A stretch of 55,737 bases of DNA, taken from positions 1-55,737 of the forward strand of contig JWZX01003112.1 in assembly GCA_001275005.1 (NCBI GenBank), read 5' to 3'. The notes below the pieces were generated by a model. It did not search any database, was not told the origin of the DNA, and saw only the letters and a list, made by a program, of their open reading frames with translations. The translations under genes were made by a program, and so were the position numbers. Positions 1 to 40,664 of this stretch are shown here, in pieces. Numbering within the stretch: the first letter of the stretch is position 1; each line of letters begins with the position of its first letter. The stretch is from Chrysochromulina tobinii. Lineage: Eukaryota > Haptophyta > Prymnesiales > Chrysochromulinaceae.

Positions 1-1509
1 GGCGGCGGAGGCGGCGGAGGCGGCGGCAGCATTGGGGGCGTTGGCGGCGTCGGCAGCTGTGGCATGGCAACGGCGTGCGGTGGCAGCGCCGTGCGATCGA
101 GCGTGACGCCGTCGGCAGGCACCGTCACGGGCGCCGTCTCGGGCGCCGCCTCGGGTCCTTCCCAGCCACGCAGCCCCACCATCGCTGCCGGCGCGCGCGC
201 CCACGACGGCGCTCGACTGAGCGCCCCCTCCGATCGGAATGACCATCGGAAGGACGACGTGATCGTGATCCATGTGTGCGACGATAACCGAAGGATCAAT
301 CGAGATTTCTATTGCTCGCGCGAGCTCCTGCTGCAGGTGATGAGCTCTGATGACACCTGATGGCCACTGAGTGCTGCAGGTGATGAGCTCTGATGACACC
401 TGATGGCACCTGATGGCCACTGAGTGCTGCAGGTGATGAGCTCTGATGACACCTGATGGACTCCTGATGACTCCTGATGGCACCTGATGGCACCGGATGC
501 CCTCTGATGACCTCTGATTGCTCGCACGAGCTCGCTCCTGCTGCCGCAGCACATGGCCTACTTTGCTCCATATTTGGGCGACGATCGGCGCGTCGATGAG
601 ATCGACATCTCCGTCCACTGCGACGTGCACATCTTCGAATGGTTGATGGAGTACATTCATCAGCCGGCCAAGCCGCCCATCCTCGATGCGGGCTCGGTGA
701 TCTCGGTGCTCATCTCGGCGGATTTCCTACAGATGAAGCCGCTGACGAAGCACTGCATCGAGTTCCTCCGCGGAGCCCTCGCTGAAGTGCTTCGCCTCCC
801 GATCGACCTGAGCTGCGTCTCGGACAATCTGCTCGGCGAGCTTGCGCTTCATCTCGAGGCGGACGAGATCGAGAGGCTGCGCGACAAGAAGGACAAGATC
901 GCGTCGAGGTTGTACACACGGAAGCTCGAGGCGCACCTCGCTGATGAGGCGAACACGCTGCACCGGTGCCCGCTCCGCACCCTCTACCGATCGGCCCTCA
1001 TGAATGCCTCTGAGTGCCCTCTGAGTGCTTCTGAGTGGCTTCTTATTACGATCAGATGGGCCTCTGAGTGCCCCCTGAGTGCCCTCTGAGTGCGCTTTTC
1101 ATCAGGTGCGCCTTCTGCAGTCGGATCTTCACATCCCTCCTCTGAGTGCCACTGAGGATCTCTGATTGCCTCCTTCATCAGGTGCGCATTCTGCAGTCGG
1201 ATCTTCACGCCCGCCCAGCGCAACTGGGAGCAATGCCCTCGCGCGCCGCCACTGCTCGACTTCCGTGGCAACGTGATCGCCGAGCATGTGCCCAACCGCC
1301 AATGGGACGTGCATCGGTGGGTCGCGACGGTCCGACGGGCAAAGGGCGGCAGTCGCGAAGCCTATTGGCGGCTGTGGGGACTCACCCACTTCCTTACCTG
1401 TTCGACGTGTGACAGCGCCTTCCCCGTGTGCGAGCTCGACATGTGCGCGCCCGCCACGGCGCGCCGGTCACGGCGCCCCGCCCACTCGAGCCCGGATGAT
1501 GACCTCTGA
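1..1509 (+). CDS. SANBR: SANBR/KIAA1841-like BTB-domain protein, 5' partial
   Basis: The reading frame is open from base 1, so the gene enters from outside the window. Exons are 1-336, 550-965 and 1182 to about 1492, with introns 337-549 (phase 0) and 966-1181 (phase 2). The spliced protein reads VIVIHVCDDNRRINRDFYC, then HMAYFAPYLGD, VDISVHCDVHIFEWLMEYI-type residues, and a C-x2-C finger (CAFCSRIFTPAQRNWEQC). Next come NRQWDVHRWV and YWRLWGLTHFLTCSTC. From memory of the family these blocks follow vertebrate SANBR (KIAA1841) in order: BTB-like domain, Cys finger, then the WRDVYWRLWG region. In vertebrates it regulates class-switch recombination; its role in an alga is unknown. After CELDMC the homologous frame appears to move by one base (ARHGAPV in another frame), so the 3' end at 1509 is uncertain. 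Real homology ends near 1490. The first residues are Gly-rich low-complexity sequence. Confidence 0.72.
337..549 (+). repeat. Intron with decamer repeats and a copied exon end
   Basis: This intron is GT-AG, phase 0. It is filled with CTGATGGCAC, CTGATGACTC and CTGAGTGCTG units. The motif GCTGCAGGTGATGAGCTC occurs at the true donor (near 331) and again near 376 and 427. Its last 30 bases (520-549) are an imperfect copy of the end of the upstream exon (311-336). Confidence 0.7.
966..1181 (+). repeat. Intron holding a decoy copy of the next exon start
   Basis: Phase-2 intron with CTGAGTGCCC-type repeats. At 1101-1132 it carries ATCAG plus a near copy of the first 27 bases of exon 3 (1182-1208). 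The decoy runs into an in-frame TGA 13 codons later. It could act as a cryptic acceptor. Confidence 0.7.
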
Positions 1510-1672
1510 TTGCCCTCCTGTTCACCTCTGATTGCCCTCCTGATGACCTCTGATTGCTCTCCTGATGACCTCTGATTGCCTCCCTCATCAGGTGCGTGCG
1601 ACCGAGGAGACTCTGATTGCCTCTGATGACCTCTGATTGCCTCTGATGACCTCTGATTGCCTCCCTCATCAG

Positions 1673-2742
1673 GTGCGTGCGACCGAGGAGACTCTGGCGA
1701 TGATGGCGCGTCTAAAGAGGCGCATGGAGACCGAGGACGTTTGGGACCAGACAGCGTACAATGAGGAGATGTGGTACGCCCCGCTCCCTAGTACCTCGGC
1801 AACTCAGCATGCATGTGCTCCCCACGGCGACCCGTTCCGTTCCCCACAGGTACGCCGCGCTCCCCGGCGTGCAGAGCCACGGCGTCTCCGTGCGTGTGAT
1901 GAACTACTTTTGCAACATGAACTCGAAGACGCTCTTCCGCTTCATGCTCGACGACGCAACCCTCATGGCGAGGCACCGGCCAGTCTCCATCCACATCAAC
2001 TACCACCCAGAGAAGCTGCCGCGCATGGAAGATGTCTTCCAGCATTTCTACGGCGCCGCGGACGACGTCGATCTCGGCGCCGGGCTCGGTCTGCCGACGA
2101 AGCGGAACGCGAGCGGCGGGCTGTACGCGTGGCATTGGGGCGTGGGGCTCAAAGCCGGGAAAGCGTGCCGTGAGGCCAGCCGCACTCCGGGGGCCTCGGG
2201 CAGCTCGCTCGCAGAGCGCATCCAGGCAGCGGGCGGCAAGGCAGTCTGGTCGGGGATCAAGGTACTTGGCATCTGATGGCATCTGATGGCATCTGATGGC
2301 ATCTGATGGCATCTGATGGCATCTGATGGCAACTGATGGCAACTGATGGCAACTGATGGCAACTGATGGCAACTGATGGTAACTGATGGCAACTGATGGC
2401 AACTGATGGCAACTGATGGCAACTGATGGCAACTGATGGCAACTGATGGCAACTGATGGCAACTGATGGCAACTGATGGCAACTGATGGTAACTGGTTGC
2501 ATCTGATTTCATCGGATTGTTCCCTTCATCAGGGCCTCCAGTTCCTCTCGGGAGGAACGCTCAAGACGCCGTGGGGAATAGGCCAATGGGGTCGCGTGCG
2601 CAGCATGCCCGGCGACGTGCTCTTTGCGGACTTCATTGGCCAGCAGCATGTGGTGCGCCTGAGCCCTGCAGGCTGGCCCACGCTGGTCTCGACGCGCTGC
2701 GCCGACTTTGAGAACGTCACAGTGACCGTCGAGCAAGGCTGA
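1673..2742 (+). CDS. RAY1/RRA-like nucleotide-diphospho-sugar glycosyltransferase, C-terminal half
   Basis: Exons are 1673-1773, 1850-2261 and 2533-2742 (introns phase 2 and phase 0), giving 240 residues to a TGA. Visible blocks are DVWDQTAYNEEMW, GVSVRVMNYFCNMNSKTLF, RPVSIHINYHPEKLPRM, then LKTPWGIGQWGRV, DVLFADF and STRC. These match the second half of the plant and algal Nucleotid_trans family (RRA/RAY1 type), which transfers sugars in the Golgi. The usual N-terminal half, with signal anchor and donor-binding start, is absent. The first exon simply follows an acceptor 180 bp after the SANBR-like exon. The protein is therefore either the 3' part of a chimaeric transcript with the SANBR-like gene, a truncated copy, or an assembly join. 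The first intron is an introner-like element and the second is a pure decamer array. Confidence 0.7.
1774..1849 (+). mobile_element. Introner-like element, 76 bp
   Basis: Runs from GTACGCC to TCCCCACAG. It shares its whole layout (AGTACCTCGGCA, CTCAGCATGCA, GTGCTC, CACGGCG, then C/T-rich sequence and CCCCACAG) with two tandem copies in the unrelated DIS3 gene at 8148-8299. The first 15 bases repeat the start of the next exon (1850-1864) with one mismatch, like a target-site duplication. Confidence 0.85.
2262..2532 (+). repeat. Intron made of a decamer tandem array
   Basis: From 2270 to about 2500 the intron is about 23 units of CTGATGGCAA or the variants CTGATGGCAT and CTGATGGTAA, with TGA on the sense strand. 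Donor is AAG|GTACTT and acceptor TTCATCAG|GG. It is phase 0. Confidence 0.9.
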
Positions 2743-3833: not shown

Positions 3834-5854
3834 TCATGCGAGTTCTCGTGTGGAAGCTATCAGGGTCTCCTTTTCAAGCAAGTAGCGCTGCCACCGGCCG
3901 ACCGCGTAGCCGAGATAGTCAAAGTCGTCTGGCCCGCCTCCGCCGCCGGCGTCAGCCTCGGCCAGCGCTGTGGTGAGCGCCCAGAGGATGTTCCACAGGT
4001 GAGCGACAAGCCCCCAGCCACGCGCCCATTCGGCCACAAGGGCCTCCGACTCGACCTCGACCTCCGCGTCCGAGATCCCAGGGAGGTGAGCGCGCACGTA
4101 CGCGCGCGCAAAGTCGCGTCGGTCGCTCTCGGTGGGTTCACGTTCCCAATCCCACGAGCCATCCTCCTCCACGAAGGCGCATTCAAGGAAGAAGTTGGCG
4201 ACGTCGAACGCACTCGGGCCTACATCGGCAAACTCAGCGTCGATCAGGCGTAAGCTGCCGCCCGCGGCGGCTGGCAGTTGCAGAAGGTTGAGGGCGTGCA
4301 CGTCCTTATGGATGATGGTGCTCTTAGTGGGCGCCACCACACCCTCCTGCGAAACCCATTGCACCTCTGCCATCAGCGCCTTGCGAACGGGCAGAGAGGG
4401 AGGCACGTGCGGGCCCCAATCTCCGTCCAATCTCCGTCCAATCTCCGTCCAATCTCCGGGGAGTGCCGCAGCCCACGCCTCCATTTCGGTCCAAAGTCGA
4501 GCTTTGTCCATCTCGGTCCATCTCGGTCCATCTCCCTCCATCTCGGTCCAAAGTCGAGCTTTGTCCGCATCGTCCACGGCGACGTCAGCGTCGGCCGGCA
4601 GCAACGGGCAGGCGTGCAGCCGACCCATCAGCGCCGCGATCAGTCCCCTGTACGGCGCCTGCATCATCTGAGAAAAGCGCAACGGATGGCCGTCGATCCA
4701 CTCCTCCACGTGGCCATGGCCGCCCTGATGAGGGAGGCAATCAAGCGGATGAGAGAGGCAATCAGAGGCCATCAGTGGATGAGAGAAGTCATTAGAGGCC
4801 ATGAGGTACCTGAGGAGGGAGGCAATCAGAGGCCATCAGAGGCCATCAACGGGCCGTCAGAGGCACTCAGCGGCACTCAGCGGCACAATCAGAGGCCCAC
4901 GCGTACCGGCAGCGCATAGAGCAGCCGCTTGCATAGCGCGCCGTCGGGCGCCACGGCTGCGAGGTGGTCCATCAGCCGGCGCTCGCGCTCGCGGTTCGTC
5001 AGCTTCGCGTTCCCCTCTCCTGTACCGTACAACTTGAGCACGGACCCGCCGCCCGCTAGTCGAAAGCTCACGTTGTTGAGACACCTGCAATCATAATGCA
5101 ATCAGCATGCAATCAGCATGCATTCAGCATGCAATCAGCATGCAATCACGTTGTTGAGACCACCGGCAATGCGAGAGCTCGCGCGGCAGAAATGGCCCTT
5201 GCCGCCGCCTCGAGGAGAGCCGCCGAGGAGGCGCACGACCTGCTCGTGCTGCTCGGCCGTCTCGGGCGATTTGTGCCCGCGCGCGAACACGTCCGCCCTC
5301 ATGTCGTGCGCATGCTGCACGAGCTCGATGGCCGCGTCCGCCGACAGGTCGAGCAGGGCACCAACGAGGCATGCACACACAATGCCCGAGCGGCCGTGGC
5401 CGCCCATGCAGTGGACTAGGAGCACACCGCCCGCCGCGATGCGCGCGAGGCTCTCCTCAAGCAACCCACGCAGCTGCTCGTCATCCGCAACGACGCCATA
5501 ATCCGGGATCGGGAAGTGCTGCCAGCTGATCGGAACGTGCGTCGTCGCATCCGCGTCCGGGTTGCGGGTGCTCACGCCGAGCGGTTGGGCGTGCCGCAAC
5601 TCGCCAGGCGGCAGAGTGCCGAGGTACGGTGGGAGCGAAGGCAGCTCCTCGTAGGGCTGCAGGCACACGATGTGCGAGACACCAGCCTCAAGGACGGCGT
5701 CACGTATCGACAGCCCGAGCGAGGGATCGGAGGCGCCCGGGTAGCCCGCGTGCACGAGCGTGCCGCCGATGAGCCAGTTGGCCGTGGGGAAACCCGGGAT
5801 AGCAGCGGCGCCTGCCTTGTCCTTCCAGTGAGTGTCGGCGTGAGGTGCGGCCAT
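3834..5854 (-). CDS. Dual-specificity phosphatase fused to choline/ethanolamine kinase
   Basis: The ATG is at 5854. Exon 1 (to 5150) encodes a PTP-fold phosphatase: WQHFPIPDYG with a likely general-acid Asp118, and the P-loop HCMGGHGRSG at 148-157 (Cys149, Arg155). The kinase then begins at AGGLNNVSFRLAGG with LKLYGTGEGNAKLTNRERE (nucleotide-binding lobe). It continues in the last exon with HVEEWIDGHPLRF, the catalytic IIHKDVHALNLLQ and metal-binding LRLIDAEFADVGPSAFD. This is the choline/ethanolamine kinase fold, the first step of the Kennedy pathway for phosphatidylethanolamine or phosphatidylcholine. The second intron, 4725-4906, is GT-AG and phase 0. The first junction near 5102-5150 is irregular (see findings). 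The HxDxxxxN motif reads HKDVHALN, so the catalytic Asp and Asn are kept. I cannot choose between choline and ethanolamine as substrate. Confidence 0.82.
4435..4570 (-). repeat. Coding minisatellite in the kinase domain
   Basis: On the sense strand GATGGACCGAGAT-type units encode repeated WTEM and DWTEIG peptides (ARLWTEMEGD, RWTEMDKARLWTEM) between the two conserved kinase lobes. The array stays in frame, so it looks like a tolerated loop expansion. Confidence 0.7.
4725..4906 (-). repeat. Decamer-rich intron in the phosphatase-kinase gene
   Basis: Donor CTGCCG|GTACGC, acceptor CCCTCATCAG|GGCGG. On the sense strand it holds CTGATGGCCT, CTGATTGCCT and CTGAGTGCCG units. Phase 0. Confidence 0.8.
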
Positions 5855-5986
5855 GCGTCGCTTATATGCGAGCCAAAAAAGGAACGAGCATGAAGGCAGT
5901 TACGACTAACCGATTGGGCCTTGCGCCCTGAAACTTGCCATCACGTTTTGTCCAAATTAGGGGGATTCATCGTGGTTCCTTCGCGG

Positions 5987-7528: not shown

Positions 7529-10500
7529 CTAGGCCCTGGGCAGTACGGGCTCGATGATGGCGAGCTGCAGCTTGGGCCGATGGGCGCGGCTCTGGTCCAC
7601 CGAGATGGCCACGCGCACCTTGTCATAGTCGGAGCGTGGGGAGATGAGGGGGCGCCGTGGTGAGCACTTGCATGCAAGGCAGGTCATCAGTGGCAATCAA
7701 CGCACCTTGTCAAAGGTTCGAAGCGTGCAGCCGGGAGCGATGAGCGCGTCCGTCTTCGCGTCGTACGCAAACGCGCTGCGCTCGCCTCGGGCCGCCACGT
7801 ACACAATCCCCTCGATGCCGTACCTCGGGACCAGAACGACGACGCCATTCTCGCGCACCTGTGGGGAAGGGAGTAGGGCGCCGTGGTGAGCACATGCATG
7901 CACGAGAACGACGACGCCATTCTCGCGCACCTTGATCACGTACGCGTCCTCCTCGGTCGCCTTGGCGCGGAAGAAGATGAGCGTGTGCAGCGCGACCGAA
8001 GCCCGCCCGGCGTGCTGCGCGAGCGTGTGTCGCTGATTGAGGTTGTCAATCAGCTCGGTCGCGGCGCTCGTGTCGAGGGCTTCGCGTGGAACCGCTTCCC
8101 ACTGGATGATGGCCGCGAGGAGCCGGTGCGCCATCTGGTCCGCGTACCTGTGGGGAAGGGAGGAGGGCGCCGTGGTGAGCACCTGCATGCTGAGCTGCCG
8201 AGGTACTGGGGAGCGGGGCGTACCTGTGGGGAAGGGAGGAGGGCGCCGTGGTGAGCACGTGCATGCTGAGCTGCCGAGGTACTAGGGAGCGCGGCGTACC
8301 GGCGGATGGGCGAGGTGAAGTGCGTGTAGATGGGCGCGGCGAGGCCATAGTGCAAGTAGTCGGCGGGGGTGAGCGTGCCCGACGAGAAGTACCGTGCTTG
8401 CTGCATCGAGCGTGTCGCCAGGATGCGCACGAGCTTATTGAAGTACGGATCAGCGGGCTTGGTGCATGCATCGAGCGAGTCCGAGAGCGCGAAGGATGAG
8501 CTCGCATCAAGTTCGAAGCCGTGCGCGCGCAGCGCGTGGTTGAGGCCGTCGAAGGCGCCGGGGGGCGGCGGCGGGTGGCGGCGCAGGATCGCGTGCTGGG
8601 GGAAGGCCTGCGCTATCTGCCTCGCAACTGTGATGTTGGCGAGGAGCATAAACTCTTCGGCCATCGAGTTGGCCTCCTTGAGATTGTACATCGCCACATC
8701 TGTGGGGTCGCGGGTCTCCGAGTCGAGCACGAAGCGCACCTGTGGGGAGACGCGAGGGCGCGCCGTAAGTGAGCACTTGCATGCCGAGGGCCGCGGGTCT
8801 CCGAGTCGAGCACAAAGCGCACCTGTGGGGAGACGCGGGGGCGCGCCGTAGTGAGCACTTGCATGCCGAGGGCCGCGGGTCTCCGAGTCGAGCACGGAAG
8901 CGCACCTCGGGGGACGCGAGGGAGAGGGCACCGCTCGCCGCCCGCTTCGCCTTGAGCGCCTTCGCGAGCCGATTGAGCGTGCGCAGCGACTCGGTCAGAG
9001 GGTCAACGAGACGCGCGTCGTCCATCCGGAGCTGAGCCTGTTCACACGAGAGGGCCGCGACGGATCAGACGCACTCAGACGCACTCAGACGCAATCAGAC
9101 GCAATCAGTGGTCATCACTCTACCTGTTCATACGAGAGCGCCGCGACGGATCGGATGACCGTCTTCGCCACCTTGGTGCTGATCACATTCGCCTCGTGGT
9201 CGACGACCCAGATGACCGAGAAGGCGAGGCGATCGACCTTCTCATGAAGTGAGCAGAGGTCCTCGCCCAGCCGCTTGGGCACCTGTGGGGACGCGGGCGC
9301 GATCGGGTGCAATCAGTACGCCCATCCTATCGTCATCGGATGCAATCAGTGCCCATCCGATCGTCATCGGGTGCAATCAGTGAATATGAAATGGCCATGT
9401 CACTGTGAATATGAAATGGTCGCCACCAGCGAGGCGATCACGCGCGTACCATGTCGATGCGCCGATTGACGAGGTACACGGTCGTGGCTCGTGCGGCCGC
9501 CTCGGCATCGATGGGCGTCCCCGGCCTTGATGAAATGGCCCACGTCCGCAATGTGCACTCCCACCTCGTACCGCGGTGCGCCGTCTTGAGCGCTCGGCAG
9601 CGCGCGCGCATGCAGGGCGTCGTCGATGTCGACGCACCCGGGAGGGTCGACCGAGCACACGAGAGTGTGCCCGTCCTCACGCAGATCCAATCTGCGCGCG
9701 ATCTCGTCCGCCGGGATCGTCCACCCTTTGACCGGTAGGCACGATTGCACCTGCCATCAGCGGATGGGCGCCGTTTCGGTCATGAGGGTGTCACTCAGTG
9801 TCCATCGAGGGCGCTCCACTGCCTTCCGAAGCATCAGCAAGCCATGAAGAACAGGCCATCGGGAGAGCCCCCTCGGACGAGCGCACCTGTGCCGAGAAGG
9901 GCGCGGTGTTAACCTCATGCTCCATCAGGATCGCCTCCGATTCCGCATTCGTATCGCCCACCACCCCGAGAGTGCGCACGTAGTGACCGGTAGGGTAGCG
10001 GTGATCGGGCTCCCAAAAGTCGAGCGCCACCACGAGCAGCTTCCCACCGAGACTCTCCGCCTGGCGCGTGCTGCTCAACGAGGAGAGAGGATGCCACGCG
10101 GGGCCATCAGCATGCAACGCGGGGCCATCAGCATGCGATGAGGGAGGCCATCTGCATGCCACGCGGGGCCATCAGCAAGGGGCAATCAGCATGCAATGAG
10201 GGAGGTCATCAGCATGCAATCCATGGGCCCATTGATGGGCCATTGATGGGGCGCTCGCCTGATGTTGATGCGCGGGACCCGCTGGTCTAGTGGCTCCGCC
10301 AAATAATTGCCCCCGAGCCCACTATCAGGATCGAGCACGCACACGTACGGCCGCCAGCCACGCTTGACCACGCCGACCACCACCCCACACGCCCGCTTGC
10401 CCCTCGAGCCCGCACGCGCGCCGCTGCTGGGCGCCGAGGACCCAGGGCCGCCGCCGCCACTACCGCCGCCGCCACATCCATTGGGCGCCGCGGCGCCTGC

Positions 10501-24426: not shown

Positions 24427-24964
24427 TGACCACTGATGACCATTGATGACCGCCGGACGTGGGCAGACCAGCACCGGCCGAAGCCACCTAATTTGGTCCA
24501 AAAGGAGACGCCACCGGCGGACGCTGGCACGGGACGAGGCCGAGCGCCTCCGGCCTGAGGTTGTGAGCCCAACAGAGAAGAAGGCACGGTATACGGAGTA
24601 GCATGTGGATTCCTGCAGCATGTGGGAACGTAGAGTACACAGGTCCGCCGCGCGTGCGCACAGCCTTTCGGCATGGGCCTTTCGGACACGTTACTGCTTA
24701 CTCAGCGAGTGTTCGACTCTTGGCTTAACGTGAAACGTCGTACACGTTACTCAGTCGAGAGTACCGAAAGATATAGATAAACGCCGTCCGTGGCGTGCCC
24801 GTAACGTAACGGTATGCCCACCAGCGCACGGTCGACATCGCGGAGAACGCACGCACGACGGCGAGCGCGAGGCCGACGCGGGCCGACGGCGACGTTCCGC
24901 TTAAGTAACGAAAGTGCTCTAAGGGATGGCGCGCGCCCTCGGCATTACAGTAAAGATTGCAGTC
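24427..24964. other. Intergenic between convergent genes
   Basis: Starts with the tail of a CTGATGACCA array and a degraded second copy of CCGCCGGACG-x-GGGC (true copy near 24382). The rest shows nothing I recognise. Confidence 0.6.
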
Positions 24965-27000
24965 TTAAGCCCTGAGATTCGAATCGGAGTGCTCGAGCCT
25001 TGCGACGAGCGCGGGCGCGTGCTGAGCGAGCGTCGCCGCATTCAGCTTGCCAAGAGTCGCGACCGCAGCCTTACGCACACTCGACACGGAGTCCTCGAGC
25101 CTTGCGACGAGGGCGGGCGCGTACTGAGCGAGCGTCGCCGCATCCAGCTGGCCAAGAGTCGAGACCACCGCACAACGCACACCCGAATCGGAGTCCTCGA
25201 GCCTTGCGACGAGCGCGGGCGCGTGCTGAGCGAGCGTCGCCGCATCCAGCTGGCCAAGAGTCGAGACCGCCGCCTCACGCACACTCCAATAGGTGTGCAC
25301 GAGCCTTGCAACGAGCGCGGGCGCGTGCTGAGCGAGCGTCGCCACATCCAGCTGGCCAAGAGTCGAGACCGCCGCCTCACGCACATCCCAATCGGAGTCC
25401 TCGAGCCTTGCGACGAGCGCGGGCGCGTGCGGAGCGAGCGTCGCCGCATCCAGCTTGCCAAGAGTCGAGACCGCCGCACAACGCACATGCCAATCGGAGT
25501 CCTTGAGCCTTGCGACGAGCACGGTCGCGTGCTGAGCGAGCGTCGCCGCATCCAGCTGGCCAAGAGTCGAGACCGCCGCACAACGCACACTCCACACGGA
25601 GTCCTCGAGCCTTGCGAGGATCGCGGGCGCGTGCTGAGCGAGCGTCGCCGCATCCAGCTGGCCAAGAGTCGAGACCGCCGCACAACGCACATCCGAATCC
25701 GAGTCCTCGAGCCTTGCGACGAGCGCGGGCGCGTGCGGAGCGAGCGTCGCCGCATTCAGCTTGCCAAGAGTCGAGACCGCCGCCTTACGCACACCCGACT
25801 CGGAGTGCTCGAGCCTTGCGAGGATCGCGGGCGCGTGCTGAGCGAGCGTCGCCGCATCCAGCTTGCCTAGAAGCGAGACCACCGCACAACGCACACCCCA
25901 ATCGGAGTGCTCGAGCCTTGCGACGAGCGCGGGCGCGTGCGGAGCGAGCGTCGCCGCATCCAGCTTGCCAAGAGTCGAGACCGCCGCCGTACGCACATCC
26001 GAATCAGAGTGCTCGAGCCTTGCGAGAATCGCGGGAGCGTGCCAATCGGAGTCCTCGAGCATTGCGAGAATCGCGGGCGCGTGCTGAGCGAGCGTCGCCG
26101 CATCCAGCTTGCCAAGAGTCGAGACCGCCGCCTTACGCACACTCCACACGGAGTCCTCGAGCCTTGCGAGGAGCGCGGGCGCGTGCTGAGCGAGCGTCGC
26201 CGCATTCAGCTTGCCAAGAGTCGAGACCGCAGCCTTACGCACGTCCGTCTCGGAGTGCTCGAGCCTTGCGAGGATCGCGGGCGCGTGCTGAGCGAGCGTC
26301 GCCACATCCAGCTGGCCAAGAGTCGAGACCGCCGCCGTACGCACATCAGAATCGGAGTCCTCGAGCCTTGCGAGGAGCGCGGGCGCGTGCTGAGCGAGCG
26401 TCGCCGCATCCAGCTGGCCAAGAGTCGAGACCGCCGCACAACGCACATCCGAATCCGAGTCCTCGAGCCTTGCGAGGATCGCGGGCGCGTGCTGAGCGAG
26501 CGTCGCCGCATTCAGCTTGCCAAGTGTCAAGACCGCCGCCTTACGCACACCCGACTCGGAGTGCTCGAGCCTTGCGACGAGCGCGGGCGCGTGCGGAGCG
26601 AGCGTCGCCGCATCCAGCTGGCCAAGAGTCGAGACCGCCGCCTCACGCACATCCGTCTCGGAGTCCTCGAGCCTTGCGACGAGCGCGGGCGCGTGCTGAG
26701 CGAGCGTCGCCGCATCCAGCTTGCCAAGAGTCGAGACCGCCGCCTTACGCACACTCCACACGGAGTCCTCGAGCCTTGCGAGGATCGCGGGCGCGTGCTG
26801 AGCGAGCGTCGCCGCATTCAGCTTGCCAAGTGTCGAGACCGCCGCCTCACGCACATCCCAATCGGAGTCCTCGAGCCTTGCGACGAGCGCGGGCGCGTGC
26901 GGAGCGAGCGTCGCCGCATCAAGCTGGCCAAGAGTCGAGACCGCCTCCCTACGCACACTCCAATCGGAGTGCTCGAGCCTTGCGAGCGCCTCGACAACCT
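24965..27000 (-). repeat. 102-bp HEAT-coding tandem array (paralogue)
   Basis: About 20 units of the same repeat as 45170-47880, in the opposite orientation. Confidence 0.92.
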
Positions 27001-27397
27001 CCGGTGTGAATGCGGCCATCGTATATTCAAGCGCCGTCGCCGCCGCTTTTCGCTCCTCGCCAGCGGCGACGGCCTCCTCGGCTTTTTCTCCGGCTGGTTG
27101 CAAGTGCATGAACAACGAGAGCCACTCGGAGACTCCTTGCCGCGGATAGAACCGCAGCCGCTCGTTCAACTGTTTGTTCTCACCCCTTAATCTCTCGACC
27201 TCGTCCCTGAGCCGTTCGACATCCTTGCGCAGCTTCTCGAGTTCTTCTGAACAGTCTGCGCTGTTCGCGGCAACCGTTGGTGGCGCCGCGCTGGGGCTGT
27301 CACCGGCGGCGCAAGTCTCCGAACCGAGCGCCGAGTCCTGCTCCAGCAGGGTCAAGCCCTTGACACTGCTCGACAACGCGCGGAAGCTATGCTGCAT
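24965..27397 (-). CDS. HEAT-repeat protein with N-terminal coiled coil
   Basis: Single exon of 810 residues from the ATG at 27397. Residues about 50-95 are a coiled coil (EELEKLRKDVERLRDEVERL). From about residue 135 to the end there are about 20 near-identical HEAT units of 34 residues (102 bp) with the pattern DSDWDVREAAVSTLGKLDAA, TLAQHAPAILARLE. One unit is internally deleted (LEDSDWHAPAILARLEHSDS). It is a clear paralogue of the gene at 43693-47943. It shares the first about 110 residues, the repeats and about 77 bp upstream, but lacks the about 300-residue middle domain. HEAT arrays bind other proteins; the partner is unknown. The high identity among repeats implies recent expansion or gene conversion. 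Confidence 0.88.
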   Translation of the reverse strand: MQHSFRALSSSVKGLTLLEQDSALGSETCAAGDSPSAAPPTVAANSADCSEELEKLRKDVERLRDEVERLRGENKQLNERLRFYPRQGVSEWLSLFMHLQPAGEKAEEAVAAGEERKAAATALEYTMAAFTPEVVEALARLEHSDWSVRREAVSTLGQLDAATLAPHAPALVARLEDSDWDVREAAVSTLGKLNAATLAQHAPAILARLEDSVWSVRKAAVSTLGKLDAATLAQHAPALVARLEDSETDVREAAVSTLGQLDAATLAPHAPALVARLEHSESGVRKAAVLTLGKLNAATLAQHAPAILARLEDSDSDVRCAAVSTLGQLDAATLAQHAPALLARLEDSDSDVRTAAVSTLGQLDVATLAQHAPAILARLEHSETDVRKAAVSTLGKLNAATLAQHAPALLARLEDSVWSVRKAAVSTLGKLDAATLAQHAPAILAMLEDSDWHAPAILARLEHSDSDVRTAAVSTLGKLDAATLAPHAPALVARLEHSDWGVRCAVVSLLGKLDAATLAQHAPAILARLEHSESGVRKAAVSTLGKLNAATLAPHAPALVARLEDSDSDVRCAAVSTLGQLDAATLAQHAPAILARLEDSVWSVRCAAVSTLGQLDAATLAQHATVLVARLKDSDWHVRCAAVSTLGKLDAATLAPHAPALVARLEDSDWDVREAAVSTLGQLDVATLAQHAPALVARLVHTYWSVREAAVSTLGQLDAATLAQHAPALVARLEDSDSGVRCAVVSTLGQLDAATLAQYAPALVARLEDSVSSVRKAAVATLGKLNAATLAQHAPALVARLEHSDSNLRA

Positions 27398-27497
27398 TGT
27401 CCGCGACCCCGGACGTATGGCAAGACAGGACCGCTTTGGGGATGTCGGTTGCTAAGTTTGCGCCACGTGTGACAGACAGTTTCGTCAGAAAGTAGAC

Positions 27498-28825: not shown

Positions 28826-31684
28826 TCATCCGACCGGCCGAGTGCTCACATAATGGTACTCGGCGAAGTGCCCCAGGTAGAGACGCGTGCGCAGCTCGAC
28901 TTTCCACACATCGGGCGGCTTGACCACGTGGCAGTAATCCTCGGAGAGTGACGAGATCACGCAGATCTCGGCCTTAAAGAGCACCTGCGGGGACGGAGGG
29001 CACCGTGGTGGGCACTTTATTTGCATGCAGAGGCGCAGTCGAGGGGCAATCAAGCCATACCGACATGGCGAGCAGGGTCGCCTCATCGATTGCATGCAGG
29101 GTCGGTATGGCTCTGCATGCAATCAAGCCATACCGACATGGCGAGCAGGGTCGCCTCATCGCCCCATGTGCGCCCATGCTGTTCCATCTCGGCGAGGTAC
29201 GCATGCCAATTGTCCACCCCCACAGAATCCTTGAGCATGAAGCGCTCGCCCACCTGATGGCATGCAATCGGGTGATGGCAATCGGGTGATGAATCACGCA
29301 ATCAGGTGACGGCAATCAGATGATGGATCACGCAATCAGCCCAAATCTGGCGCTGTGAGGCACGAGAGGCACTCGGGGGCTCTCGGGAGCAGCCCCATTA
29401 AGGTCATTAAGGTCATTAAGGTCATTAAGGTCATTAGGGCTTTCAGGAGCAGCCCTAGGCAACGTAAGGCAATCATCTTGCCATCGTCCATCGCTCGACT
29501 GCCATTCGTCAAATGCAATCACATGCAATCACATGCAATCATATGCAATCATATGCAATCATATGCAATCATATGCAATCACCTTGCCATCGTCCATCGC
29601 TCGACTGCCATTCGTCTTGAGCCATTGCACCGCCTTTTGACGAAGCTTGAGAGCATTGTAGCCGCCAAAGCCCACCTGCTCGAGCATCGCCATCCGAGGC
29701 AATCAGTGGCAATCACATGCAATCATACGCAATCAGGCTATCAGAGGCCATCACCTGCTCGAGCGGGCAATCAAATGCAATCATATGCAATCATATGCAA
29801 TCAGGCCATCACCTGCTCGAGCTGGTCGGCGATCGCGTGGAACTGGCAGTTGTTATCGCCGGGCACGTCCTTGATCTTGAAGCCGCGCACCCCAAGGTGG
29901 CGCGCGAGGCGAGAGCGTGGGTCCTGCGGCAGGTGCTTCTCGGCTTCCTTTTCGCGTGCCTTGTTAACGCGGTCGCGCAGCGCCTGATGAGGGGGGCAAT
30001 CAGAGGTCATCCAGACGCAATCAGAGGTCATCCAGACGCAATCAGAGGTCATCCGAGGCACTCCAAGGCACTTGCCACACACCGGAAACGGACTCAGAGG
30101 CACTCAGAGGCACTCAGAGGCACTCAGAGGCACTCAGAGGCACTCAGAGGCACTAAGAGGCACTCAGATGCAGTCAGAGGCACTCAGAGGCACTCAGAGG
30201 CACTCAGATGGCCTTCCCACCTGCAGCTCAGCCGACGGCTCCGACGCCACGATCCCACGCGTTGTGTTGGGCGCCATGATCCCACGCGTTGGCGGCTTCG
30301 CGCTTGGCGGCTTCGCGTGGTAAGGCCCCTCGCCACCAAGCGTGTCTGGCCTAATCGTGTCTTCCCAAATGTTCTTCGGCCTCTCCGACCTTGTCCCCGC
30401 CGCGGCGGCAGCGGCGGCGGCGGCGGCGGCGGCGCTGCCACCAATCTTTCCAGCGGGCATAGCGGCCATCGGGATGGCCACCTTGGGATACATGGTGTTC
30501 GCATACTCGTACGACGGCGGCGTTGGCGCCGGCCGCGTTGGCGTCGTTGGCGTCGGCTCGTCGGGTCGCCCACTACGGCGCTCGTCGGGTCGCCCACTAC
30601 GGCGCTCGTCGGGTCGCCCACTACGGCGCTCGTCGGGTCGCGCGAACGCCGACGGCCCTTCTGCGGCGCCGCCGCCCATGGGTGCGCTCACGACGGCGCT
30701 CAAGTCCGCAGCGTCGCCACCAGTGGGCACGTCGGGCGCCGTAGTGGGCATGGTTGGCGCCGTAGTGGGCACGTTTGGCGCCGTAGTGGGCAACATGGGC
30801 GCCGTAGTGGGCAGCTGATACGGGCCCGCCAGAGGCCGTGCGAGCGCCGTAGTGGGCAACGCGAGCTGCTGCTGCTCGACCTGCTTCTCGACGCCTTCGC
30901 ACCGAATCGTGTAGTACGGGGGCATGTCGTCGTTGTGAACCACCAAGACCTCAGCGGGGATCGGCGCACCCTGAGCCGGATGATAGAGGACCACGTCGCC
31001 CTTGGCGAACAGCACGGCGGGTGGCGGCGGGGCGCTCGGCGGCAGGGCGTAGGGAGTTCCGGGCATCGGCGACGGCGCTGAGACTCCCCGAGCAGGAGCC
31101 ATGCTCGAGGCGGCGTCCGTCGCATCGCCGCGCCCCAATACGAGCGGTACACCCGCTACGCCTGCCCCGGCGGCCGCTACGCCGGCCGCCGCCACGCCAG
31201 CCGCCGCGGCGGCGGCCGCAGGCTTGAGCTTGGGCTTGAGCTTGGGCTTGGGCTTGGGCCTAAAGCTGGCCCAGCGCTGCTCGAGCTGCGCAATCATGTC
31301 CATCCGAAACTGGTCGCCATCGGGCGCCGCCTCCGGCAGCGGCGCGGGCTCCGCCTCGTTGAGCATCCTCGTCAGCCGTGGTTTGAGCTCCTCGAGCGCG
31401 TCGACCACCGATAACAGGTCGCGCTGGAGTTTCAGGTGCGCCGTCGACTTTTTGTTGATGGAATTGGCCTTGCTGATCGTCTCGTAGAACTTTGCGAAGC
31501 GAAGCATGAACACAAAGGCCTCCTTTAGGCTGCCGAGTGTGTTCGCATTGTACTTTTGGAAGGCGACGACGCGCAGGTGCTCGGCCTGCTGGTAGAGGCG
31601 CTCGGGGTTTAAGAAGCTGGATTTGTCGCCGAGGGACCCGATCTTGTCGCCCTCGGCCACGAGCCGCTCCATCTCACGCCCCAT
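28826..31684 (-). CDS. USP8-dimer/OTU-domain deubiquitinase
   Basis: Five exons: 31684-30221, 29983-29813, 29675-29583, 29253-29134 and 28984-28826, all joined in phase 0, 668 residues. The N-terminus (FLNPERLYQQAEHLRVVAFQ, AFVFMLRFAKFYETISK) matches the USP8-dimerisation/MIT-like helical domain found in AMSH and USP8. In the middle is a Tudor-like piece (LFAKGDVVLYHPAQG, YTIRCEGVEKQVEQQQL) and Pro/Thr-rich repeats. The C-terminus is an OTU cysteine protease: IKDVPGDNNCQFHAIADQL (Asp, catalytic Cys), YNALKLRQKAVQWL, HGRTWGDEATLLAMS, ICVISSL and LGHFAEYHY (catalytic His). It should cleave ubiquitin chains, perhaps at endosomes given the N-terminal domain. The ATG at 31684 is preceded by another possible in-frame non-ATG codon stretch. 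Confidence 0.85.
28985..29133 (-). mobile_element. Introner-like intron with duplicated exon end in the OTU gene
   Basis: 149 bp, phase 0. It contains a second copy of about 32 bases of the upstream exon end (CGATGAGGCGACCCTGCTCG through CATGTCG|GTATGG), then GCATGCAAATAAAGTGCCCA, CCACGGTGCCC and CCGTCCCCGCAG. Confidence 0.82.
29254..29582 (-). repeat. OTU-gene intron with TGATTGCATA array and exact 33-base exon-end copy
   Basis: 329 bp, phase 0. Immediately after the donor come TGATTGCATA units. Then an identical 33-base copy (about 29478-29510) of the end of the upstream exon (29583-29615). A (CATTAAGGT)-type run lies near 29395-29440. Confidence 0.85.
29676..29812 (-). repeat. OTU-gene intron bounded by CTCGAGCAG copies
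   Basis: 137 bp, phase 0. CTCGAGCAGGTG occurs at the donor, in the middle (near 29752-29763) and at the acceptor. TGATTGCATA units fill the rest. Confidence 0.8.
29984..30220 (-). repeat. OTU-gene intron with CTGAGTGCCT array
   Basis: 237 bp, phase 0. About twelve CTGAGTGCCT units follow the donor on the sense strand. Three GATGACCTCTGATTGCGTCT units precede the acceptor. Confidence 0.85.
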
Positions 31685-32655: not shown

Positions 32656-35600
32656 TCACGCAAACGAGCGCACCTGGCCGCCGCGGCCGCCGCCGCCGCC
32701 GCCGCGGCCCCCTTTGGCTGCGGCGCCCTTGGCCGCGCCTTTGCCCTTTCCCTTTCCGCCTTTGCCCTTTCCGCCTTTGCCCTTGCCAGCACCTCCCTTG
32801 CCAGCCCCTCCCTTGGCGCCGGCCGCGCCGTCGACGGTGATGATGGCAATCGTGGACATGAGGGAGAAAGCGCTCATCGGGATGATCGAGAAGCTCACCC
32901 CTAGGCGGGCCGCGGGCCGCAAGCCGCTGCCGCTGCCCTCGAGGGGGGCGCTCTCAGCCCCCCGTGACGAAACCGCGCCCCGTGACGAAACCGCCTCCCG
33001 TGACGAAACCGCGCCCCGTGATGGTGTGGCCGCCACCGCCCCGTGTGTCTTCAGCTGCCCGCCGTGCCCAGATGGCACGCCCGCCTCCGCCGCCTCCGCC
33101 GCCTCCGCCGCCTCCACCTCCGCCAGCTCCACCAGCTCCGCCTCCGCCTCCCAGTCAAACACCTCCTCGACTGCGGCCACAGCCGCGGCGAGCCCTCGGA
33201 CCACGGCAGCGGCCGCAACGGCCTTAGCCCCCTTGCCCTTCTTGCCGACGAGCTGATGGCGAAGGTCATTAGCGCCCAAGCTCGCGCTCACGGCGCTCCC
33301 CTTGCCGCCCAACACGGCGCTCCCCTTGCCGCCCAACACGGCGCTCCGCCCCTTGGTGCGTCCTCCGCGCGCGTCCGGCTCGTCCTCCTCCTCGTCGTCG
33401 TCGTCGTCCTCGTGTTCGTCAAACGGTTGCTCGCCGTCCTCCTCCTCTTCGTCGTCGTCGCGTCGTCTTAAGCGCACTGCGAACGCAGGCTCGTCCTCGT
33501 CGTCCTCGTCGTCCTCCTCCTCCTCATCCGCTTCCACCTCCTGAGTGTGCTCGTCGTTGCGCGCGAATCCCTTGCCTTTCCCCTTGCCTGGCATCGACGA
33601 CCCCTTGGCACCGGCCGGGGCGTTGTGATGAGCACTTGCATGCATCGACGACCCCTTGGCACCGGCCGCGGCGTTGTGCGGGCGCTGTGCTGAGCTTCGC
33701 GGTGCCGACGGACGTGGCGCCGAAGGGCGCGGCGCCGACGGCGCGGGGGGCGCGGCGCTGTGCCGAGCACCTGGCGCCGTGTTGGGCTCCGGCGCGGGCT
33801 CAGGCACGGGCGCCGTGTTGGGCTCTGTCTCGGCGCTGATATCGTACACGGCGGACGAGAGGGTGAGCCGGATGACGCCCACGGCGGCGCGTAGCACCTG
33901 ATGAGGGAGGCAATCAGAGGTCATCAGGGTGAGGAGAGTCGGATGACGCCCACGGCGGCGCGTAGCACTTGGGAGCCATGATCGTGCCCTAATGAGGGAG
34001 GCAATCACATGCAATCACATGCAATCAATGCAATCACATGCAATCAGGCCATCACCTGGGAGCCATGATCGTGCCCTAATGAGGGAGGCAATCACATGCA
34101 ATCACATGCAATCACACGCAATCAGGCCATCACCTGGGAGCCATGATCGTGCCCTAATGAGGGAGGCAATCACATGCAATCACATGCAATCAGGCCATCA
34201 CTTGGGAGCCATGATCGTGCCCTAATGAGGGAGGCAATCACATGCAATCACATGCAATCAGGCCATCACCTGGGAGCCATGATCGTGCCCTAGGATCGCC
34301 TCGCCGTTCACAGCGACCAGGAGCTGCCCAGGCAAGATCTCGCCCGACTCGGCGGCGATGCAGCCTGGCACGACCGTCAAGATCGTCGGCGCGCTCTGGC
34401 TGTTCCCCTTGAGAGTGATCCCAAGTCGCGAGCTCGCCGTGGGCTTCTTCAGCTTGATGTTCACAGTGCCAGCCGCCCAGGGGTTGGCAGGTGGCGGCGC
34501 TGCCTCGGTGGCGGCGGCCGGCGCTGCCGCGGCGGTGCTGGCGGCGCCCGGCACGGCGCCCGCCATGAGTCCTTTGCCCACACCTTTGCCAACTCCCTTG
34601 CCCGCACCCTTGGCACCTTTCCCTGTCGACACCGACGCCTCGGCGGCGGCGCTCGTGACGGCGCTCGAGGCCGGCGCCTCCGACGAGGCGCCGTACCGGG
34701 CACTCTTGGGCCCTCCCTTGGGCACCGCGCCGTTCTGGGCGGCCGCTTCGACGGCCGTTGGCGCCGAGTGCAGCCCGAGGCCTTTCGCGCCTCTGACGAA
34801 ACCCTTGGCGCCCGCGACGGCGCCGACGGATGGCGCCGTACCGGGCACGGCGGCCGCCGCCCCGTCCACCGGCGGCAAGGTGCCATCCTCGACGCGCCGG
34901 CGCGCCTCGGTGAGCGCGAGCGTGTCGGCTTGCTTGAGCCACTCCTGCCACGTGGCAGAGGGTCATCAGCGGTCATCAGGGGCAATCAGCGGTCATCAGG
35001 GGCAATCAGCGGTCATCAGAGGCACTCAGCGCACCTGCCACGTGGCGGGCGCGCCGCCCGTCACGCCCTTGCCACCCCTGCCGCCCTTGCCCTTGCCAAG
35101 GAACGCACCGACCTTGCCCTCGGCGTCGAGCGCCGTCGCGGGCGCCTCGGCGAGCCGCCCACCCTTGCCTTTGGCGAACGCTTCGCCTTTGCCGAGGCGC
35201 GGCACGGGCGCACCGGCCTCGTCGCCGCCTTTGGCCGTCGCTGGGGCTGCAGCTCGCTCCGCGGCCGCACGAGCTGCAGCCGAGATCGAGATCGACATCT
35301 CGTCGGCGTCTCCGGCGAGCAGCTTCTCCTTTTCGAGCCGCAACCGCTCATTCTCCGCGCGGACGCGCCGAAGCTCTTCCCGCAGCTCCGCATTGGCAGA
35401 CATGCCGGAGGGCACATCCCCTCCTAGGTTCTCGAGCATTTGTTGCCGGGCGAAGGCCGCCGCGCCCTTGCCCTTGCCGCCGCGCGTACCGGCGCCAGCA
35501 CCGCCCGCCTTGCCGCCGTCGCCGTCGGCGGCGCCGCCGGCGCTCTCGCTTCCCTTGCCGCCGGCGAAGGCAGCGGCCTCGCCCTTGCCGCCCTTGCCGC

Positions 35601-38469: not shown

Positions 38470-38726
38470 GATAATTTCGGAAGTCTGCGCGACTTCCGGC
38501 GCGCGCAATCCACGCGTCGCTCGCGGGACCGCGTGTGAAAAAGAACTAGTCGATTACCCCCCGTGTGTGAAATACCGCCAGTGAGAAACCAAAATAGTCT
38601 CGACGATCGCCGCGCGAACCTCGCGAGTTGCCCGCTATGGTGCCGGTTTGAATTGCCGCCCGCGCTTAACGGTCGACAATTTAGCCCTTCCAAGATCTTG
38701 AATGTATTCCGAATTAAAGAGTCACG
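38470..38726. other. Intergenic
   Basis: Nothing recognised; it contains the upstream region of the PDZ protein and the 3' flank of the sulfotransferase. Confidence 0.6.
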
Positions 38727-40664
38727 TCACCCTGTGTCCTTTCCGTCAGCACGCACCCCGCGCCTCTTCGCCGCCTTGCGCGCCTGGCGCAGCGCCCCCG
38801 CCGGCGAGAGCTCGAGCACCTGACGCAGCGTGAGCCCGCACAGGCCGCACGTCTTCTTGCAGTTGGTGCGCATCCACGACGAGGTGGCGCAGGGGCCTTG
38901 CTTGTCGTGCAGGTTCGCGGCCGAGTTGCCCTCAGCCTCGCACCCAGCAAAGTCGGCCCACGGGCTCCCGAAAGCGAGCACCTCGGGCGGCGTGTCGTTA
39001 CATCCTATCGCTTCGAAGGTCAGCGGGCGCAGCCTGTCGCGCACGCGCTTCGCGAACGTGGACGCGCGCACGGCACTCTCCGCGGCGCTCGGCACACGGT
39101 ACGGCACGGGCGCAAACGGCGGCTCCGCGTCGGGCGGCAGTGAGCACTCCGTGTCGCAGATCGTGGGGAGTGATGCATTGATGGCCTTGGCCATGGCGTC
39201 GTACCCAGGGCCTCGCACGGCACGCTCGTTGCGCGGGTCGCCCACCTGTGGGGATAGGGCGCCGTAGTGAGCACTTGCATGCAGGGCTCAAGGAGCGCGA
39301 GGGTCGCCCACCTCGGGCAGCCAGTGGTAGCAGTGCGTGGGTAGCCTGCGGCGTGCCATGCGGATGGCCAAGCACGCGTGGATGTGCTGGCAGCACGAGG
39401 CGCGCGTGTGGCGCCAGTTGAAGCGGAATGGCGTGTCGGCAAAGATGCGCTGGCACGCCTCCAAAGCAATGGGGCTGCTGCCCCCAACTGGGCAGTGCAG
39501 CCGGCTCATCGGCACCCGGCTGTGCATCTGCGTCGGCGACGAGCGATGGCGAGCGACGACCCTAAGCAGCTCCTCGCCATCAAAGTCGTCTTCAGCGCCC
39601 GACCGTTTCGCCGCGGCGATCCGCTCGGCCCGTGCGCGCAGCGTCTGCGACTGGTACGCGGCGTTGGCCTGCCGGAAGGCGCGGAGCCGCGCTTGGAACG
39701 GCGCGCCCAGCGCGGACACCTTGGCCGCGAAGGCCGCCGAGAAGGCCGCGTAGAGCTCGTGATCGAAGGGCGCGACCTCACGAATACGCGCGTCGCACGC
39801 GGCCGGGTCTGGGCACACGGCGGAGACCGACGGCTGCGCGTAGTGCGGGTTGGTGGTGCCTGGGACCGCGCGCATGTGCAGCAGCCGCTGCAAACCAGTC
39901 AGGTCTGCCAGCAGCAGCAGCGTCTCGTCAAACCGCTCCATCAGGCCCACCAGGTCAAACGAGGAGAGGAGGGAGCGCAGAAGGGCACGCTGCTTGGCGC
40001 CCTCGCCAGGGCGGCGGGCGACCGTGGCCCCAGGTGGCAGCTGGCCATCGGGGCCGGGCGCGTCGTCGAACTGCGAGTACTCCCGGCGCTTCGCCTGCCC
40101 ATCTTTCGTGTTCACGCCCAGGAACTCGGCCCAAGTCGCATCGATCGGACGCAGCATGATCGAGCTCTGCAAGTTGCGCGGCGCCCAGTCGAGAATGGTC
40201 GCGCCGAAGAGGGTCGAGTTGCGCGCCTGGCGCCACGAGACTGTCCAGCGGTAGAAGGAGACGTAGTAAGACGTCGGCTCGCGCAGCCGCGTCACGAGCA
40301 CCACGGTGCACTGGCAGCGGAGCGCGACCTGCTGCAACGGCGACGTGGGCCCAAACGCGGCGAGGATCGTGCGCATGCCCATGCGCGAGTAGTGGTGCTC
40401 CGCGAAGAGGCGAAATGGTGCGCGGCGATCCCAGTCCGAGCAGCTCGCGTTGCGCGGGCCCAGCAGCGCGGCCGTCAGCGTGTCAGTCACCTGCCAGTGC
40501 TGGTGCAGTCCATAACCCCAAAAGCCCCAGCCGTCCAACATGTCGTTGGTATTCACGATGTGGCGCAGCGTACTGCCACCATTCTTGTGCGTATGACGCT
40601 CGAGGACGATCGAGCACGGCTTCAGAGGCGTCACCAGCCACGGGGCGAGCGGGCGCTGTGACAT
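38727..40664 (-). CDS. Sulfotransferase with C-terminal ShKT domain
   Basis: Two exons (40664-39312 and 39245-38727), joined in phase 0, 623 residues. The PAPS 5'-phosphosulfate loop is visible near residue 24 (RHTHKNGGSTLRHIV). The 3'-phosphate site follows (VVLVTRLREPTSYYVSFYRW), then FDLVGLMERFDETLLLLADL. This places it among Golgi-type carbohydrate or glycolipid sulfotransferases. The C-terminal region has a six-Cys ShKT-like module (WADFAGCEAEGNSAANL, KQGPCATSSWMRTNCKKTCGLC in part). There is no clear signal anchor at the start. The acceptor is unknown, likely a secreted polysaccharide or glycolipid. Diverges from the DUF3431 gene. Confidence 0.82.
39246..39311 (-). mobile_element. Introner-like element in the sulfotransferase gene
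   Basis: 66 bp, phase 0. It starts with a copy of the next exon start (GTGGGCGACCC, CGCGC). It continues TGCATGCAAGTGCTCACTAC, GGCGCCC and TATCCCCACAG. Confidence 0.88.

Follow-up and report, generated by a model that had tools for sequence, protein, structure and literature searches.

How can an intron arise whose interior repeats the edge of the exon beside it? The question is posed by a contig of the haptophyte Chrysochromulina tobinii (JWZX01003112.1, positions 1 to 55,737; contig C1953 of the genome searched and hereafter called the window), in which an earlier sequence-only reading had noticed that most introns repeat either the end of the upstream or the start of the downstream exon, and had explained this by tandem duplication of exonic stretches holding AG/GT. 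The repeats were confirmed by our analysis, and we judge it rather probable that the introns formed by a different route, in which a cassette copied from an existing intron inserts into an exon and the target stretch, called T in the following, is duplicated around the cassette.

Exon-edge copies and a dispersed cassette

The genome searched comprised 53.15 Mb in 2,253 contigs, and the GC content of the window varied between 0.57 and 0.74 per 2 kb. The cyclophilin of the window has its best named database matches in Haptolina and Prymnesium (72% identity), which indicates a probable haptophyte origin. An identical copy of window positions 500-1300 was present on contig C306 (14786-15586), which means that the assembly holds redundant or haplotype contigs. 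The census of the window covered the 24 introns whose limits could be set via the reading frame, eight of which fit the database protein P0121, and left aside intron G1i3, further introns of gene G6 and some arrays. For each intron, 60 nt of both flanking exons were compared with the intron in two tests, one for the exon start and one for the exon end, and 552 mismatched exon/intron pairs served as the null. An exon-edge copy with p < 0.01 in at least one of the two tests was found in 12 of the 24 introns (about 0.5 expected), which makes the earlier wording of "most introns" fair to slightly generous. Three further introns (G3i8, G4ia and G6ib) gave p values of 0.02-0.033 with the exon edge included, and G3i3 was not counted, its match (p 0.013) lying off the edge. 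In introns consisting of a single unit, the exon-start copy begins at most 3 nt from the intron start and the exon-end copy lies at the intron end, and for G1i1, G1i2, G3i5, G4ie and G6ib an internal or shifted copy was seen. All seven examples cited in the earlier reading were recovered in the sequence (Table 1), the one at 520-549 being the weakest, and similarity to the flanks was higher than in mismatched pairs, where that reading had named similarity no higher than in shuffled controls as evidence against itself. Its count of 16 out of 27 downstream exons starting with GT became 15 out of 24 in our census.

Outside the exon copy, many of the introns hold the sequence GCATGCAAGTGCTCACNACRGCGC. 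Allowing up to 2 mismatches, we found its 24-base core (written with G for R) at 2,080 places of the genome; the exact core followed by CCCCACAGGT within 2-24 bases was found at 226 places, and a cassette with its own donor, GTACGTTGATTGCCACTGATGACCTGCCTTGCATGC, at 133 places with up to 3 mismatches, while the reversed or corresponding control yielded 0 places in each case. By pattern matching, an acceptor arm alone was recognised in 95 of 147 core-sampled copies and a donor arm alone in 7; both arms were seen in 2 copies and none in 43. The motif TGCTCAC within the core resembles the general branch-point consensus yUnAy, and the core may thus hold the branch point. Some introns of the types D and A described below contain minisatellite cassettes without the core instead, for example (CTGATGACC)n ending in CTGATTGCACTCCTCATCAG. 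These obey the same rule for T as the core cassettes, as illustrated by identical or nearly identical T copies of 16-38 nt at L040 (+445, with an identical T of 33 nt, +753, +914 and +3781), at L039 (-2618 and -9318) and at window positions 33898-33968.

Architecture of the duplications

To describe the cassettes genome-wide, 136 loci and the window were sampled, giving 199 distinct cores, of which 84 were set aside for having another core within 170 nt and 115 were kept as isolated. At each isolated core, the 100 nt before it and the 150 nt after it were aligned with each other, and the best score was compared with the 99% level of mismatched pairings, a cut-off that misses repeats shorter than about 14 nt. 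An early version of this null contained near-duplicate loci (maximum 96), and none of 102 copies exceeded that maximum, so the 99% quantile was used. A significant repeat flanked 85 of the 115 isolated cores (1.15 expected), with a mean identity of 93-95% in the sampled significant copies. Because a binomial p value ignores the local repeats of this genome, we rely on the comparison of these 74% with the 15% of 1,350 random positions that pass the same cut-off (20% of the 600 inside the window).

The 85 significant cores were assigned to 53 cases of type D, 11 called cases of type A (9 clean) and 21 unclassified ones, many of which show small gaps near the junction. L010 -2420 and L018 -2304 were rejected as type A, the former reading as type D and the latter being a chance pairing. 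In the proposed scheme, a short cassette from an existing intron would be inserted into an exon and its target duplicated on both sides. A type D intron would accordingly start with a first T (15-47 nt), whose first bases, mostly GT, would serve as donor, and continue with the core, a C/T tract and the acceptor CCCCACAG brought by the cassette, while the second T would open exon 2. Type A would be the mirror image: the first T would close exon 1, the cassette would bring the donor (GTACGTTGATTGCCACTGATGACC, followed by the core), and the end of the second T would provide the acceptor before exon 2. In either case, splicing would take out one T together with the cassette and restore the original message.

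Type D copies have a T of 15-47 nt (median 29) in introns of 63-122 nt (median 78), start with GT in 49 and GC in 4 of the 53 cases, as the class rule requires, and end in CCCCACAG in 44 of 53. In all nine clean type A introns (69-87 nt, T 15-30 nt), the donor lies 30 nt before the core. The duplications start exactly at the splice junction: the match between the two copies in type D is 0.85-0.98 at positions +1 to +14 past the junction (0-based), 0.91-0.98 at +2 to +6 compared to 0.30-0.52 in the null, and declines to background by about +40, while positions -14 to -3 are at background (-10 to -3: 0.297 vs. 0.288 in mismatched pairs). The profile of type A mirrors that of type D. The rule used for assigning types (GT or GC and AG no more than 8 nt from the edge of the block) is blind to blocks reaching far upstream and might conceal duplications that span the junction; therefore, the test was redone with the acceptor called from the cassette alone. 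An edge-anchored copy was then found at 59 of 78 non-A cores (null 7 of 1,544), starting with GT or GC in 54 of the 59 without the rule requiring it, and none of the 59 extended upstream with a score of at least 6, the upstream profile again being at background.

These profiles decide on the origin by tandem duplication of an exonic AGGT segment (Rogers model) that the sequence-only reading had proposed. The exon-edge copies are real, an exonic stretch is indeed duplicated and provides one splice site, the protein stays unchanged, and the upstream exon ends in AG in about half of the type D cases (27 of 53; 28 of 59 in the cassette-only calls). The duplicated block, however, does not hold AG/GT: no excess match exists upstream of the junction in the 53 type D introns, and none of the 59 copies extends across it. 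Neither is the intron a single duplicated unit, since the copy covers only 15-47 of the 63-122 nt of type D introns and the rest is a cassette repeated throughout the genome, nor is AGGT needed at the site, as the upstream exon does not end in AG in 26 of 53 and 31 of 59 cases. Sites without an intron point in the same direction. The intron of locus L015 sits in a dual-specificity-phosphatase motif (SLVIA/YVMW) whose peptide matches eight further places in the genome, and the three of them examined are all intronless (ATCGC/CTACATC, ATCGC/CTTTCTG and ATCGC/GTACCTC), with neither AGGT nor a duplication. These are distant paralogues (50-71% identity) rather than alleles or the sister strains in which the earlier reading had expected such intronless sites without AGGT to speak against it. 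Because the copy starts at the junction and the upstream match is at background, tandem duplication of AGGT is refuted as the general cause, and we attach practically no probability to it as the origin of these introns; single pure cases may occur elsewhere in the genome.

The length of T varies in a regular manner. In the 22 type D copies whose identity reaches 96% or more, T measures 15 to 47 nt and is inversely related to the extra sequence between T and core (rho -0.73), and the donor is at least 26 nt away from the core in all 53 type D introns. We read this trade-off as the outcome of a variable duplication on which selection for a minimum intron length has acted. In 13 gap-free copies whose T ends exactly at the core, the next base of the target equals the first base of the core in 12 (control 36%) and the next two bases match in 8 (control 13.5%); without one array unit the values are 11 of 12 and 7 of 12. 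Such microhomology at the left junction suits a copying process guided by microhomology.

Splicing, sources and insertions without splice sites

The consequences for the protein were followed in a minus-strand gene at about 7.5-11.8 kb of the window, which codes for a DIS3/RRP44 homologue and from which eight introns were spliced in silico. All eight junction peptides are present in P0121 (586 aa, from a contig of 2,194 bp), with one difference in the 418 residues searched, so the introns are removed without change of the protein, as seen at the protein level and in this one gene. In relatives, the DIS3 sequences P0126 (longest contig 12,015 bp) and P0127 run as single open reading frames across the positions of introns 4-8, with the same junction residues at 5 of 5 and 4 of 5 positions, respectively; their contigs may be transcript-derived. 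At about position 9516, a DIS3 exon of the window shifts frame where P0121 stays in frame, which is either an assembly error or a polymorphism.

Introns 5 and 6 of this gene consist of two units each. Such arrays would result from tandem duplication of whole units, and because the units abut as AG/GT, any combination of removals, of one unit or of all, would give the same mRNA. In another protein, P0236, intron 5 is removed and one of the two units of intron 6 (8148-8299) is kept, reflecting either the splicing of one unit and retention of the other or an allele that has a single unit. Duplications crossing a splice boundary occur as a later step that multiplies whole units (for example 8740-8905 and 1592-1672), and the intron at 1014-1181 looks like a duplication across a 3' boundary. 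Such a process, known from a potato RdRp gene, could be proposed for the introns in general, with duplication across the boundary of a pre-existing intron instead of insertion into an intact exon, and it does fit the extra array units at 1014-1181, 1592-1672 and 8740-8905. In DIS3 intron 7, however, the sequence before the first T is coding exon in P0121, so there was no older intron at this place; the other single-unit introns look like intron 7, the protein comparison behind the argument being that of intron 7. We consider a general origin by boundary duplication highly improbable.

Two copies could be traced to a source, and source tracing rests on these two pairs. The intron of L025 shares the 14 nt before the core (13 matching) and an identical right arm of 20 nt with L027 on the same contig, and these 14 nt are the end of L027's own T. 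The 33-nt T of the intron at 1774-1849 occurs at three places in the genome, all on the window contig. It is carried by the two units of DIS3 intron 6, whose T matches this intron and not the DIS3 exon beyond GTACGC; DIS3 intron 6 is probably a copied whole intron with the intron at 1774-1849 as its source. Sequence shared outside the core was found in 14 of 12,246 non-A pairs and 14 of 861 type A pairs of flanks, several of which are duplicate loci or arrays (L035/L059). A less clean observation, which we did not use for source tracing, concerns the type A introns L084/L092/L094 and L080/L091 on different contigs: they have as many as 21 nt in common on the right side of the core, their own acceptor among them, and the upstream exons at those sites end in similar stretches of 7-10 nt, perhaps indicating whole-intron copying with short homology.

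The core also inserts without any splice site. Nine such bare cores were found in open frames with T copies of 16-36 nt, one in the window (33593-33670) and the others at L019, L041, L095 and L071. The units measure 51 bp in the window, 48 at L019, 51 at L041, 45 at L095 and 42, 60, 60, 48 and 54 at L071, all nine being multiples of three. L071 (contig C343, 1900-3300) is a long open stretch with several bare cores, each with duplicated target residues and some arrayed; since open frames run along both of its strands (466 and 464 codons), the finding that its cores lie in both orientations holds whichever strand codes. A protein search for alleles without the bare core at 33620-33643 returned a single protein, P0241, covering 17% of the query, and was dropped. 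At about 24386-24456 of the window, near the 3' end of a gene, a CTGATGACCA minisatellite lies between two similar copies of about 21 nt without GT or AG, as judged by eye, and is perhaps another non-splicing insertion.

Table 1. Coordinates of introns and of one bare-core insertion in the window; the fourth column gives identities of the copies or p values, the fifth agreement with the database protein.
Position	Strand	Feature	Identity or p	Protein
337-549	+	Minisatellite intron; end region resembles upstream exon end 311-336, not exactly at the edge	520-549 vs. 311-336: 22 identical, gapped; p 0.009	
1014-1181	+	Intron with internal copy (1106-1132) of downstream exon start (1182-1208); a further 3' splice-site segment lies before the copy	26/27	
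1592-1672	+	81-bp unit: exon-start copy 1592-1615, minisatellite cassette ending CATCAG; exonic copy 1673-1696	24/24	
1774-1849	+	Type D intron in gene with SANBR-like BTB domain: T1 1774-1788, core 1807-1830, exonic T2 1850-1864		
5085-5163	-	Type D intron with GATTGCATGCT minisatellite cassette; 15-nt exon copy starting 2-3 nt inside the edge	p 0.0018	
7619-7705	-	DIS3 intron 8, type A-like: donor arm GTGCGTTGATTGCCACTGATGACC, core 7652-7675, weak exon-end copy at acceptor	p 0.027	fits P0121
7859-7930	-	DIS3 intron 7, type D: T1 7904-7930, core 7878-7901, right arm and acceptor 7859-7877; exonic T2 7832-7858	26/27	fits P0121
8148-8299	-	DIS3 intron 6, two units; cores 8243-8266 and 8167-8190		fits P0121
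8740-8905	-	DIS3 intron 5, type D unit twice (8823-8905, 8740-8822); exonic copy 8709-8739; core 8843-8866	two 83-bp units, 80 identical; exon copy 30/31	fits P0121
9038-9123	-	DIS3 intron 4, type A, donor-bearing minisatellite cassette; end 9038-9069 repeats exon end 9124-9155	29/32	fits P0121
22356-22442	+	Type A intron: donor arm and core 22392-22415; 15-nt exon-end copy at acceptor	p 0.02	
22959-23031	+	Type D intron: T1 about 22959-22988, core 22989-23012, exonic copy from 23032		
23867-24075	+	Intron with internal 18-nt copy of upstream exon end beside CTGATGACGA minisatellite	p 0.009	
29477-29582	-	Type A intron: donor-bearing GTGATTGCAT minisatellite, 34-nt exon-end copy at acceptor	29478-29510 vs. 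29583-29615: 32/33, register off by one	
33593-33670	-	Bare core in 452-codon open frame: T1 33644-33670, core 33620-33643, T2 33593-33619; 51-bp unit without splice arms		
33898-33968	-	Type D intron: 33-36 nt exon-start copy, minisatellite cassette ending CATCAG		
39246-39311	-	Type D intron: 15-nt exon copy, core 39259-39282, acceptor CCCCACAG		

Two further open frames of the window contain repeats: one of 828 codons at 24965-27451 (minus strand) is composed of tandem repeats of about 110 bp (GAGTCCTCGAGCCTTGCGACGAGCGCGGGCG..), as seen by eye, and one of 1,432 codons at 43645-47943 matches HEAT repeats (HEAT_2, 14 stretches).

A wider reading is put forward tentatively, and we rate it somewhat below an even chance. 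Half-introns instead of whole mobile introns would spread, either as a 3' cassette (core, pyrimidine tract and acceptor) or as a mirror 5' cassette (donor and core), copied from introns already present by a jump based on replication or reverse transcription without a fixed target-site duplication, and the duplicated exon would supply the missing half. The 24-bp core would also jump into coding exons in either orientation, splicing being only one of its fates.

As to how the copy of T is made, template switching and retro-insertion have to be compared. We infer that DNA synthesis, guided by microhomology, would jump from the target to an intron and back to a point upstream in the target, by which T would be copied again. 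This is favoured because the length of T is not fixed, the left junctions share 1-3 nt with the start of the cassette, and part of the source locus's own T is present in at least one insertion. In retro-insertion, an excised intron RNA or a fragment of it would be reverse transcribed at a nicked target that serves as primer, and staggered nicks would lead to long and variable duplications; the cassette end at the intron end would then represent the RNA end, the other end being truncated. The variable T and the cassettes that are fixed at one intron end and variable at the other agree with this, and the genome contains 26 matches to the reverse-transcriptase domain RVT_1, 22 of them above the curated cut-off, with no link to the cassettes. 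In type A, however, the truncated end is not the one that standard 3'-primed copying would leave short, the left end of type D lies upstream of the presumed branch point, and the bare core, found in both orientations, includes neither end of an intron. Moreover, the two copies that were traced, small as this number is, each have their source on their own contig, an argument for DNA copied locally. We therefore regard retro-insertion as unlikely.

Several points weigh against insertion of copied cassettes with duplication of T as the origin of the introns. Neither a mobilising enzyme nor an active source was identified, transposases not having been searched for, and the evidence for splicing is at the protein level and from a single gene. 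The loci were taken in contig order and not randomly, 30 of them having been picked via the donor arm, and local repeats are common in this genome. The 43 of 147 core copies with neither arm, the 30 of 115 isolated cores without a significant repeat and the 19 of 78 cassette-only calls without an edge-anchored copy do not show the expected structure; in the latter two groups, T has decayed or is short, or another route exists. A dinucleotide scan was dropped as evidence (GT/AG gave 49 type D and 41 type A hits, other pairs 1 to 166), being uninformative because one repeat is scored from many interior starts. The nine bare cores were picked by eye from 24 candidates, over all of which the remainders 0, 1 and 2 on division by three are distributed 14/6/4; the other 15 were judged by eye to be intron-type arrays, and part of them was checked. 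Because two of the L071 units form one array and the L041 unit is followed by the acceptor-like CGCCACAG and may be intronic, seven independent clean bare cores are left. Finally, the microhomology sample comprises 13 copies.

Relation to known modes of intron gain

The closest known elements are introners, which were compared on the basis of the published passages at hand. In those of Gozashti et al. 2022 (PMC9860276), a target duplication supplies one splice site, with lengths of 3-9 bp in earlier families and 4 bp in an example from Chrysochromulina, a species of which is among the figure examples; a target-site duplication is not present in all families and terminal inverted repeats only in part of them. 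Both systems have numerous introns of similar sequence at new sites, show direct repeats where the insertion took place and take a donor or acceptor from the repeat; here, similar introns are found at many unrelated sites (2,080 core places and 226 places with exact core, acceptor and GT). The duplication differs from the short one of 3-9 bp in these passages, being present here with a variable length (type D: 15-47 nt), which means that about one third of the intron is contributed by the host exon; the core also occurs without splice sites, and no inverted repeats were matched by eye at the cassette ends (GCATGC.. and ..CCCCACAG; GTACGTTG.. and ..GGCGC).

The cassettes might nevertheless be ordinary introners, DNA transposons of the non-autonomous kind for which a transposase carries out the insertion and the target site is duplicated. 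In agreement with this explanation, similar cores are found in introns by the thousand, their boundaries bear direct repeats, and the repeat yields a donor or an acceptor, as in the passages of PMC9860276. It is contradicted by T being 15-47 nt and not fixed, compared to 3-9 bp in the same passages, by cassette ends (GCATGC.. and ..CACAG) that are not inverted repeats, by minisatellite cassettes following the same rule and by one cassette carrying flank from its source locus. We regard this origin as quite improbable. A duplication of 15-47 nt was found in none of the introner passages compared, subscription papers and supplements lying outside the search, and the literature search returned no filler-DNA tandem duplications.

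Other cases share single features, as far as the parts of the respective papers compared here go. New introns of Daphnia pulex, attributed to repair of staggered breaks, have exon-intron repeats of 4-12 bp and mostly unknown sources (PMC4202315). An exon terminus is repeated at the opposite intron end there as well as here, and secondary internal repeats occur, but the repeats here are longer (15-47 nt in type D and 15-30 nt in clean type A, those below about 14 nt being undetectable) and the insert is a recurrent cassette. In the potato RdRp gene, the donor came from an exonic copy and the acceptor from the end of a pre-existing intron by duplication across that intron (PMC4974935). A donor from an exonic copy and an acceptor stemming from the end of an older intron are common to both, the unchanged protein of the Rogers model is found here too, and our array expansion resembles the potato mode, but the acceptor cassette here enters an intact exon. 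Direct repeats of 4-30 bp (mean 11.4) at or near the borders of 213 introns have been reported, with no shared cassette family or mirror types mentioned in the abstract (PMC11782384); the repeats here are longer on average and were tested against mismatched pairs. Introners of Amoebophrya are likewise repeated introns with direct repeats overlapping the boundaries, which are 3-5 nt long and accompanied by inverted repeats of 8-20 nt and mostly non-canonical splice sites (PMC7789003), in contrast to the GT or GC with AG and the lack of visible inverted repeats here. The present system thus works like introners, has repeats like a long version of those in Daphnia and expands its arrays like the potato gene, and we see it as a variant of introners and not as a new category.

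Intron gain has long been debated, and few recent cases keep their footprint. Near-identical duplications in many copies allow source, target, junctions and age to be read directly, and a variable duplication of 15-47 nt misfits the fixed short duplication of transposons and points to another copying chemistry. The arrays abutting as AG/GT represent natural tests of repeated splicing through exons of zero length. Insertion of half an intron would let new introns arise without a change of the protein, the insert giving one splice site and the copied exon the other.

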